Assembly (NCBI GenBank): GCA_023105745.1
Contig: JALGQZ010000007.1
Location: 51,813,569 to 51,877,568 of the forward strand
Source of the DNA: Austropuccinia psidii
Lineage: Eukaryota > Basidiomycota > Pucciniomycetes > Pucciniales > Sphaerophragmiaceae
DNA length: 64,000 bases
Direction of reading: 5' to 3'
The number at the start of each line of letters is the position of its first letter. Within the stretch, counting starts at the first letter, position 1. Below the pieces are notes generated by a model. It made no database searches. It was not told the origin of the DNA and saw only the letters and a program-made list of their open reading frames with translations. Shown one piece after another: positions 13,401 through 14,584 of this stretch. The position numbers and the translations under genes were made by a program.

Positions 13401-14258
13401 AGAATTGTCATTATTAGAATGTTTAATTGTTCTTAAAACTTTTTCAAAACACATAAGTGTTTCATTAATTTGGCACAGACTCAGGTTGTTTGTTTTAATG
13501 TTGTTACAAATGGTGTCATTTTTATCAGAAAGATGTTTTTTCACGTCATTTATAGCATTATACAACTCTGGGATGGAATCAAATATGTCAGAAATCATTT
13601 CTGGAACCTTAATCTGGCTTCCTCCTTCTTCTGTAATTCCATCATGGTTCTGGCCATCTGAAATACATTTTCCATGGCATCCTGCTGAATCTTTGGGATT
13701 CTGTAGCTCTGGCTGTAAGGTTTTGGGGCTGGTGCCTTCCCTTTGCCCTTGTTTGGAGTTTGTGGCTGCTTTTTCACGTTGGAATTGCTGCTGCTGGCCA
13801 CTGGGGCTGCTTTTGGCACTGGTTTGGGTGGTGGAGGGTTGTTTTTCCTCCATTCCAGTGTCAAAAGCATCATGTTTTTCTTCTCCATCAATGGATGCCA
13901 TCCATTGAGCAATTTGCAAGTGTTGGGATGGCCCAAGAATTTTCTTACTGTCAGGTAAGAATTCATGCAATTCTTCCACAGGTCTGCAAGGATCTGGTAC
14001 TCCTTGAATTGGAGTGCATTGTTGTATGCACTGTGGCTGGCTTTGTATATGTCCACAGAGGCTTGTTGTGGCGGTTTCAGCTCTTTTTGAAGGTAAAATG
14101 GTATTATCAGCTTCAGAATGACCCATTTTAGTTGTTTGGAAGTCATCAACTGACCCTTTTCCTTCTGTACCTGATTGGCCTCTGCCATAATCACGTCTAT
14201 TACCTTTTTGGGAGCTGCTTGAGGGGTTGTAGCTGGCTCCTGATCTGGTTGAAGGCAT
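10422..14258 (-). CDS. gag-pol: Element A Gag-Pol, 5' part: Gag, zinc knuckle, protease, RT
   Basis: A 1278-codon open frame. From the second in-frame Met discussed here (13598), the order is: coiled-coil-like N-terminal region, capsid-like domain starting near WPHFSGEGEYDHMEF, CCHC knuckle CHICQRTTHLANTC (near 12200), aspartic protease motif LLLDPGAFCS (Asp near 11837), then reverse transcriptase with the YIDD active site (near 10787). It ends at TAG (10422-10424), where the same frame runs on into RNase H. The conventional start is the ATG at 14258. However, codons 1-220 overlap another, more protein-like frame and look compositionally odd (Q/S/P-rich). I think the real start is codon 221 (13598), where an ATGA links it to ORF1. 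The protease has DPG in place of the usual DTG/DSG. Confidence 0.95.
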   Translation of the reverse strand: MPSTRSGASYNPSSSSQKGNRRDYGRGQSGTEGKGSVDDFQTTKMGHSEADNTILPSKRAETATTSLCGHIQSQPQCIQQCTPIQGVPDPCRPVEELHEFLPDSKKILGPSQHLQIAQWMASIDGEEKHDAFDTGMEEKQPSTTQTSAKSSPSGQQQQFQREKAATNSKQGQREGTSPKTLQPELQNPKDSAGCHGKCISDGQNHDGITEEGGSQIKVPEMISDIFDSIPELYNAINDVKKHLSDKNDTICNNIKTNNLSLCQINETLMCFEKVLRTIKHSNNDNSSNIKINEQSAIIKELTDKYSKLNIDDMIETRIKQAINIIKTDNKKVLDDISNSFTEVKTYTIALKKCFDASQEEISKLSMKLNQVTADNTRQTELWQELTHKEDMYKIEVINLIQSFQHEYRNSQRCSNSKMNDIEQILNTLPRMSTPLNQNEGTRIPNPQVLDPDNSQLKNELSTSFHNLEPSMGQALLKEVPKLKEWPHFSGEGEYDHMEFIRGIDMIKEDFELPDRLVTARFNTLFTRSAHRWYIKIRQAHGHQSWTWWKTQIINKWANDAWRFKVETAFESAKFNADKDKALPWFCQQKDRLTALYPDMSEFMIHRKILRQCGGDLEHAVKSRTTEQSSAEDIINILEEVTTRTKICSSRVNLKTRFNTPWKDSVDKNPKENSSNIKYKSADTVRKCHICQRTTHLANTCPKRGKINEIDIEKEPDVEKEDIIEDNSDDKSSIFSESSKDIENINATFDIMESYSHLPQLSNGQVDLSKVQDAQLMKTKPNRGKGYTAGNSCITEVVIDNKPTKLLLDPGAFCSCVGKSFLKTCVPNFEDQLLPIDGITFNSASNPMKALGIFETNVIFPHINGNLRITVEFVVMENCSSTHFILGNDYLIMYGIDLHNKKDRYFTIGDNKRQKFAFLPFKEQITVNKVSPVNLELEKFKSEQLNETEISLHLTDKQENELSSLLYDHRGAFATDKEPLGAIIGHEVDIILNIERPYPPLLRRPAYPASPKSREALEIHIKELLDLGVIRKVGHNEEVEITTPVIVAWHNGKSRMVGDFRALNTYTVPDRYPIPKIQIALTQISQAVYITTMDALKGFHQNVVTPRARKYLRIIVHCGVYEYLRMPFGIKNAPSHFQRMMNEIFPEELSEGWLIIYIDDIIICSKTWEEHMYRLSRVLTKIQSVNMKIYLKKCHFGFKELKALGHVVSGLSLGIDKNKVAAVLLKPMPQNKKEIQSFLGFAGYYRQHIKDFASIARPLYKLCDKDTVFEMTVDRVKAF

Positions 14259-14584
14259 AATTATGGTTAAAAAAGGCTTAAAATAGTATTTTTACGTCAA
14301 AAACTTACTATTGGCCAAATTCTTAGCCTTCTGAAGAGTATTACTTATGTCCAAGTTAATTAATTCAGAAGATATTGGTTCAGGTTGGTTATTTTGAGTC
14401 ACAATAACAGTACTATTATGATCAGAATTAACAGTACTGGCAGGGATAATGCTGGTTACTGTTGAGGCTGTTTCAATGTTTTCTTGTCTTACCACGTTGT
14501 CAGACACTAAAATTAATGAAAAAGCCAATTAATTAAGTAAAAAAAAGGTTATTTCAAAAAAGAAATAAAAATATAAGCCTCACT
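13595..14584 (-). CDS. Element A ORF1: putative spliced accessory/Gag-like protein overlapping Gag-Pol
   Basis: Proposed exons on the minus strand: ...14584 (A of the start codon), 14506-14309, 14244-13595. Introns are 14583-14507 (GTGAGG...TTTTAG, 77 nt) and 14308-14245 (GTAAGT...ACCAG, 64 nt), the same size class as the host gene's introns. Splicing gives A|TG as start and 849 nt, that is 282 codons plus TGA, with no internal stop. The protein begins MSDNVVRQ, has an S/T-rich N-terminus, a central region including LADLWKNCMNSYLTVRKFLG, a K/P-rich linker (NNPPPPKPVPKAAP; NKGKGKAPAPKP) and ends MMELQKKEEARLRFQK. Intron 2 contains the ATG at 14258, so splicing would remove the conventional Gag-Pol start. 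The TGA overlaps an ATG of the Gag-Pol frame (ATGA, 13598-13595). Function unknown. The model is inferred from splice signals and frame; no transcript was seen. Confidence 0.6.

Follow-up and report, generated by a model that had tools for sequence, protein, structure and literature searches.

Likely splicing-dependent dual coding by a Ty3/gypsy element of Austropuccinia psidii, in which a spliced gene overlaps the start of Gag-Pol

When two reading frames lie open over the same nucleotides, are both of them translated, and what determines which one the ribosomes take? This question is raised by a Ty3/gypsy retroelement on the minus strand of a 64,000-nucleotide (nt) stretch of Austropuccinia psidii DNA (C7:51813569-51877568, in an assembly of 1,015,390,075 bases). 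The whole stretch is called the window below, and all positions are those of the window. In this element, the beginning of the Gag-Pol frame overlaps a second open reading frame (ORF), ORF1. By comparing genomic copies of the element, we found it likely that its coding is dual and dependent on splicing, such that unspliced RNA would give Gag-Pol and spliced RNA would give ORF1.

We refer to the Gag-Pol frame, counted from ATG 14258, as frame A and to the ORF1 frame as frame B. Position 1 of a frame A codon (A1) is position 3 of a frame B codon (B3), A2 is B1, and A3 is B2. Because A1 is B3, a change that is silent in ORF1 almost always alters a frame A amino acid or creates a frame A stop. The original prediction for this locus held that both frames are open over about 650 nt and that ORF1 is assembled by splicing, and both points were confirmed. 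Removal of 14583-14507 (77 nt, GT..AG) and 14308-14245 (64 nt, GTAAGT..CAG) leaves 849 nt, i.e., 282 codons and a stop, and frame A is free of stops beyond chance when the ORF1 protein is held fixed. Joining of the A at 14584 to the TG at 14506 does create the first ATG of ORF1, as had been proposed, but the claim that it is the only ATG fails beyond the start, as ORF1 contains later methionine codons. The Gag-Pol ATG at 14258 lies inside intron 2, again as predicted, and is thus excised with it. ORF1 ends in AAATGA, and the ATGA at 13598-13595 overlaps an ATG of the Gag-Pol frame in the stop/start layout of a stop-restart cassette.

The annotated proteins listed as matches to ORF1 (120 of 568) and to frame A (120 of 673) are all named Austropuccinia psidii MF-1. 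Exon 2 is included in 33 of the 120 listed ORF1 proteins; 21 of these 33 join exon 3 at the predicted site (manual reading), and 14 begin one codon past the split ATG. The frequent annotated starts that read MVRQ probably reflect CpG decay (ACGTG to ACATG). Since annotated proteins are preselected as open in one frame, copies of the DNA itself were required.

Two sets of copies were compared with the window. The young set consists of 29 other copies with 26 distinct sequences and 5 to 9 differences in 990 nt. All 29 keep the A of the split start codon, the tested splice signals, ATG 14258, and the ATGA; the spliced ORF1 is intact in 28, Gag-Pol codons 1 to 220 are open in 28, and the leader lacks an ATG in 25. 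The diverged copies were picked by similarity to ORF1 and not to frame A: 30 loci found with the ORF1 query P0003 and 60 found with P0098 were aligned to the window, and three young ones were dropped, leaving 87 copies with 81 to 99% identity in the overlap (14 at ≥97%). The copies are interrelated, and P values are therefore rough.

Changes private to one of the 87 copies look neutral and provide a built-in neutral yardstick. The 439 private changes were spread over ORF1 codon positions 1, 2, and 3 as 157/134/148, and 13 of the 96 that were silent in ORF1 made a frame A stop, where mutation alone predicts 11.1%. Changes found in at least six copies (n = 138), referred to here as shared, were distributed 23/30/85 over the same positions. 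In exon 2, changes common to copies of a 27-copy set were distributed 1/0/14. In gag proper, 45 of 72 shared changes were at Gag third positions. Relative to the neutral yardstick, shared changes occurred at 0.84 when silent in ORF1 and missense in frame A, at 0.245 when missense in ORF1 and silent in frame A, at 0.203 when missense in both, and at 0 when they made a frame A stop. This comparison, which had been suggested along with the original prediction, indicates that ORF1 is clearly selected as a protein outside a third intron described below, and that Gag-Pol codons 1 to 220 are held open with their amino acids nearly free.

Introns 1 and 2 also behave as introns in the copies. Insertion and deletion (indel) events per 100 nt numbered 83 in upstream exon 1, 75 in intron 1, 7.1 in exon 2, 41 in intron 2, and 5.6 in the overlap, the introns being AT rich and containing homopolymer runs, a composition that itself favors indels. 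Intron 2 measured 63 nt in 9 of the 87 copies, 64 nt in 35, and 65 nt in 37, and single-base insertions in it were common to up to 50 copies. These lengths depart from multiples of three, and therefore, without splicing, the ORF1 exons of those copies would stand in different relative frames. The 15 positions of the splice signals and the split codon had a mean conservation of 0.958, versus 0.885 for the intron interiors (P = 0.0022), and variants present in at least six copies affected 1 of these 15 positions, versus 37 of 114 interior positions. All signals of both introns were kept in 55 of the 87 copies. The possibility that the introns are an illusion was rejected on the indel pattern and on the loss of ORF1 constraint within the third intron. 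The comparison thus suggests that ORF1 needs splicing and that its introns are under selection as introns.

The probable third intron, at 14154-14083 (72 nt), was missed by the original prediction and is skipped in annotated models, e.g., P0030, P0032, and P0053. We initially set it aside and reinstated it on the basis of shared ORF1 stops and lost constraint. ORF1 stops present in more than five copies lie at 14149 (9 copies), 14125 (7 copies), and 14047 (10 copies); 4 of the 10 ORF1 stop positions common to at least three copies fall inside the 72-nt stretch, namely, 14149, 14125, and two more (3 and 5 copies). Altogether, ORF1 stops were found in 27 of 1,983 codons inside the stretch versus 66 of 16,568 outside it, and those of frame A were equally frequent in the two (8 of 1,982 and 62 of 16,569). 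Shared changes were distributed 4/10/9 over ORF1 codon positions inside versus 19/20/76 outside, a difference in third-position share that gave a Fisher P value of 0.019 with small numbers inside (23 shared changes). Relative to neutral, ORF1-missense and ORF1-silent shared changes stood at 0.44 and 0.45 inside, versus 0.18 and 0.77 outside. The GT of this stretch was kept in 83 of 87 copies and the AG in 82 of 87. On the plain reading of these patterns, the 72-nt stretch would be an intron spliced out of the ORF1 mRNA, leaving Gag-Pol as its sole coding use. Its length is a multiple of three, so that ORF1 is in frame with or without its removal, and because it lies inside ORF1, the mature protein may have 258 rather than 282 codons.

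The ORF1 protein is basic (isoelectric point of 9.73 for the 282-residue form) and is predicted to be mostly helical with a long C-terminal helix, according to a low-confidence model of its homolog P0002 (mean predicted local distance difference test score [pLDDT], 60.5). Its Pfam matches were weak ones only, and among viral contigs, five stretches matched a pattern, none of them coding for a relative. In retroviruses, accessory genes of the Rev type give a regulatory protein from spliced RNA, and the structural proteins come from unspliced RNA; the likeness of ORF1 to these genes lies in the logic of splicing. By analogy with Rev or with the CERV protein described below, our guess is that ORF1 has an accessory role, with the RNA of its own element as the target, or else is a second structural protein. 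The latter idea, in which ORF1 is Gag-like or RNA coating rather than a regulator and splicing fixes the proportions of the particle proteins, is one that we entertain tentatively. The basic charge and the helical model would suit it, and a ratio device would be useful where Gag and Pol share one frame; against it, searches of PDB, Pfam, and folds found no similarity of ORF1 to known structural proteins.

The original prediction that no gypsy element with this combination had been described was too strong, given Cer1 of Caenorhabditis elegans, in which a spliced gene overlaps gag partly in a different frame (PMC10309623). Cer1 is likewise a Ty3/gypsy element, and its extra protein, CERV, is made from a spliced mRNA whose exon 4 lies over gag in the other frame. 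CERV is required for export of the unspliced RNA, from which Gag-Pol is made, and has no obvious homology beyond nematodes (PMC10309623). CERV differs in that it shares gag peptides and its N terminus, and an ORF downstream of pol contributes half of it (PMC10309623), whereas almost the whole of ORF1 lies in the N-terminal Gag-Pol overlap or immediately ahead of it, and ORF1 has a start that is split and hidden and ends before gag proper. We regard the resemblance, which is one of position and logic, as analogy and not kinship. Alternative splicing also picks the protein made by long terminal repeat (LTR) elements in the copia element EVADE, in the short-GAG splicing of BARE1, and in Ogre with its introns; in these elements, introns trim gag/pol or give subgenomic RNAs, and a second overlapping gene is not described in the part of the source used here (PMC12786077). 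In the open-access literature, including PMC12210899 and PMC12774611, we recognized no element from a rust or another fungus with the same arrangement.

If ORF1 is selected as a protein, is frame A also read across it? We held the ORF1 protein fixed and resampled its codons under three codon-usage models, with 1,500 simulations each. The expected number of frame A stops over 219 codons ranged from 8.7 (ORF1's own usage) to 14.5 (Gag-Pol usage), versus 0 observed, and none of the 1,500 simulations under any of the models was stop free. T occupied 30 of 129 T-capable third positions of ORF1 in the overlap, versus 28 of 50 in exon 2 and 335 of 713 in Gag-Pol. In the copies, stops per codon in the overlap numbered 70/18,551 in frame A, 93/18,551 in ORF1, and 1,722/18,550 in the third frame, and no frame A stop was common to at least five of the 87 copies. 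ORF1-silent changes created frame A stops in 4 of 42 cases among changes found in two copies, 1 of 28 among those found in three to five copies, and 0 of 67 among those found in at least six. None of the 138 shared changes created one, versus 12.5 expected at neighboring rates (P = 3.6e-6), and the deficit held outside the 72-nt stretch (0 versus 11.7 expected; P = 8e-6). With thresholds of 4, 6, and 10, applied to the whole set and to each set alone, P ranged from 8e-7 to 3e-3; of these nine runs, only that of the full set at threshold 4 contained a frame A stop, a single one. Judged by these counts, the Gag-Pol frame is one that had to stay stop free in the lineages that spread.

A reading in which only ORF1 is real, with Gag-Pol made solely by stop-restart at the ATGA on spliced RNA and codons 1 to 220 forming an unread shadow, is unlikely in our view. 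ORF1 is indeed the constrained frame, frame A missense changes at ORF1-silent sites occur near the neutral rate, and the ATGA is kept in 110 of 119 genomic copies (29 + 27 + 54), with no variant common to at least six copies. The protein comparisons run the same way. Among the 120 listed frame A proteins, the share of one-step differences from the window at A1 was 0.647 versus 0.411 expected (downstream gag, 0.45 versus 0.404), and differences per opportunity were 0.048 at A1 versus 0.019 and 0.017 at the other two positions. The frequency of ORF1-silent non-CpG transitions was 0.116 overall, 0.126 for frame A conservative changes, and 0.098 for radical ones. A meaningless frame A was first favored on such protein-only tests and was then rejected on the stop counts in DNA copies: a shadow should gather stops, yet the window has 0 where 8.7 to 14.5 are expected, and the copies share 0 where 12.5 are expected. 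Moreover, ATG 14258 has no variant common to at least six copies, and isoleucine stands at the supposed restart codon in 14 of 84 annotated copies. We are evenly inclined for and against the proposal that codons 1 to 220 of Gag-Pol, hardly selected for their amino acids, function chiefly as a bridge between the first AUG and gag, over nucleotides owned by ORF1, in a splice-controlled frame switch in which the third intron is read only in the Gag-Pol frame.

The leader accords with a switch between the two frames. In the tested 1,042-nt part of it, we found no ATG on the coding strand versus 13.4 expected, and 19 on the antisense strand; the 734 nt ahead of the split donor likewise had none versus 8.9 expected, an outcome matched in 0 of 3,000 shuffles. 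ATG 14258 was kept in 29/29, 28/30, and 55/60 copies. Because the leader is ATG free, the first AUG of the unspliced RNA is 14258 and that of the fully spliced RNA is the assembled AUG; a slight doubt attaches to ATG 15319 near the probable cap, which might open a short upstream ORF. Scanning ribosomes would start at 14258 on the unspliced (genomic) RNA and make Gag-Pol with an N-terminal stretch of about 220 residues. After removal of the first two introns and, probably, the third, the first AUG would be the one joined from A and TG, giving ORF1, of 258 to 282 residues, in the other frame. Translation of an RNA from which only intron 1 had been removed shows that ORF1 would end inside intron 2, shortly before ATG 14258. 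With the start of ORF1 hidden by its split in unspliced RNA and the start of Gag-Pol lost with intron 2, the state of splicing would decide the product, provided that the first AUG is used on each form of the RNA. The original suggestion that splicing acts as a switch between products is thereby supported by the comparison of copies, i.e., by a selected spliced ORF1, an open Gag-Pol frame, and conserved splice sites.

Restart at the ATGA could possibly add a shorter Gag-Pol made from spliced RNA. An overlapping stop and start between retroelement ORFs is known from the UAAUG of SART1, and AUGA is among the layouts listed with it (PMC5972666). SART1 is a non-LTR element in which coupling has been observed (PMC5972666), whereas here only the layout is present, and the RNA around the ATGA has no unusual fold (z = −0.68). 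The same region bears on the idea that dual coding is real and that ribosomes pass from ORF1 to Gag-Pol by a minus-one frameshift near the end of ORF1 instead of using two forms of RNA, which we consider highly improbable. Frame A is minus one from ORF1, as a shift would require, but no slippery heptamer was seen by eye before the ORF1 stop, no unusual fold accompanies it, and frame A is open all the way from ATG 14258, more than a shift late in ORF1 would require. Hardly credible at all is the notion that only Gag-Pol from 14258 is real and that ORF1, with its introns, is an artifact of gene prediction: 14258 is the first AUG of unspliced RNA, an ORF1 stop is common to 10 copies, and splicing is predicted here from sequence comparison, yet 85 of 138 shared changes fall on ORF1 and not Gag-Pol third positions (in gag, 45 of 72 fall on Gag thirds), exon 2 has its 1/0/14 pattern, indels and intron lengths vary as described, and ORF1 constraint vanishes exactly inside the third GT..AG stretch.

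Several observations weigh against splicing-dependent dual coding of ORF1 and Gag-Pol. The ORF1 stop at 14047 (TAA, 14047-14045) lies outside the third intron and occurs in 10 of the 87 copies, of varied identity (L036, L037, L050, L054, L055, L067, L096, L099, L112, and L120). It is either a recurrent mutation or the mark of a spreading lineage without full ORF1, and it counts against the claim that all spreading lineages carry an intact ORF1; the case for dual coding is strengthened by the third intron and weakened by this stop. Some ORF1 stop outside the third intron is present in 45 of 87 copies. G to T at 14505, the one position among the 15 signal positions with a variant in at least six copies, is common to 9 of 87 copies (including L082, L083, L087, L088, L092, L099, and L112) and turns the split codon into ATT; in these copies, either ORF1 is lost or ATT acts as a near-cognate start. 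No intronless junction turned up in the window or in the 120 fetched loci. The lack of ATGs past the split donor had a P value of 0.32 with the protein held fixed; it is due mostly to the absence of methionine from ORF1 exon 2 and hence lends little support to use of 14258 as the first AUG. Among the 59 of 120 listed proteins that reach past the overlap, frame A identity was 71% within it versus 77% downstream, 367 candidate proteins (709 to 2,256 amino acids) had no match to the frame A overlap stretch, and stops in gag past codon 220 occur in several young copies (plus-strand loci only). Frame A conservative changes made up 48 of 65 versus a share of 0.596 expected (P = 0.012), a weak preference; the amino acids are barely constrained, and a role for the peptide itself is therefore doubtful. 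The isoleucines at the restart codon, inferred to be ATA if the ORF1 stop is kept, are about as frequent as ORF1-silent transitions (0.116). Finally, ORF1 has no PDB sequence match at an E value of ≤1, and fold searches with a low-confidence model returned nothing at an E value of ≤0.001.

The element that carries this overlap was assigned to Ty3/gypsy (Metaviridae) by its paired LTRs with a target site duplication (TSD), GATGG, and by the domain order reverse transcriptase (RT)-RNase H-integrase (PF00078, then PF17917/PF17919, PF17921, and PF00665). The LTRs, of 1,838 bp each, have seven differences between them by blastn and alignment, and the copy is therefore young. An in-frame stop at 10424-10422 on the minus strand, between the RT and RNase H parts, breaks this otherwise young copy. 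Coordinates are collected in Table 1.

Table 1. Features of the Ty3/gypsy element in the window
Feature	Positions	Strand	Details
5' LTR	14732..16569	-	Begins TGTGAG, ends TTACA; TSD GATGG at 16574-16570; blastn and alignment
TATAAA, likely promoter	15351..15356	-	ATG 15319 close to the probable transcription start (start site inferred)
ATG-free leader	14259..15318	-	1,060 nt, 0 ATG
Last base of exon 1, A of split start	14584	-	Kept in 0.98 of 87 copies
Intron 1	14507..14583	-	GTGAGG..TTTTAG; conservation and indel pattern
ORF1 exon 2	14309..14506	-	TG, 65 codons, and 1 nt; third-position bias, few indels
Intron 2	14245..14308	-	GTAAGT..CAG; holds the Gag-Pol ATG
Gag-Pol first AUG	14256..14258	-	First AUG in unspliced RNA past 15319; opens frame A
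ORF1 exon 3 to TGA	13595..14244	-	Becomes exons 3 and 4 if the 72-nt stretch is excised
Third, in-frame intron-like stretch	14083..14154	-	72 nt, GTCAGT..AAAAAG; still Gag-Pol coding in unspliced RNA
Gag-Pol codons 1-220 over ORF1	13599..14258	-	Appear kept open, amino acids nearly free
ATGA	13595..13598	-	ORF1 stop overlapping an ATG of the Gag-Pol frame
Gag-Pol frame to in-frame stop	10422..14258	-	Contains RT domain PF00078
Gag-Pol frame past stop	8334..10421	-	RNase H, integrase zinc-binding, integrase core, Tf2-1-like SH3
3' LTR	6473..8310	-	TSD GATGG at 6472-6468; blastn and alignment

The same window has other features. Positions 1-1800 (minus strand) hold a different, decayed gypsy element with a gag that is 37% identical (605-93), and there a 225-codon open frame at 1659-982 runs beside a second protein-like frame with stops; the overlap design may thus be common to more than one gypsy family. 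A diverged LTR of the studied family, 82% identical, lies at 30384-32175 (plus strand) with no internal part recognized next to it, and it has three ATGs in the region that is ATG free in the studied element. A fragment at 61974-62747 (minus strand) has a weak GAG-pre-integrase match (E = 0.002, below the cutoff) and is probably a copia-type remnant, and one at 17439-17714 (minus strand) weakly matches (30%) the RNase H part of the studied element's Pol and is probably the remnant of another element. Imperfect direct repeats occupy 1857-2616 and 4775-5233, with spacings of about 158 to 175 nt and 93 to 141 nt.

The genome of A. psidii, the myrtle rust fungus, was described in 2020 as the largest assembled fungal genome, its growth being attributed mainly to Gypsy elements (PMC8063080). 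With one ORF1 query, a first look at the assembly gave 46,121 unconfirmed candidates, and such first-look counts suggest that this single genome holds the family in thousands of copies, old and young alike. Selection on each frame, splice site, and start codon is therefore directly measurable. Retroelements need their unspliced RNA as genome and for Gag-Pol, yet they need other proteins too, a problem that seems to be solved here with a handful of very short introns and a single stretch of sequence used twice. The family also allows a test of whether a frame can be maintained open solely as a passage.

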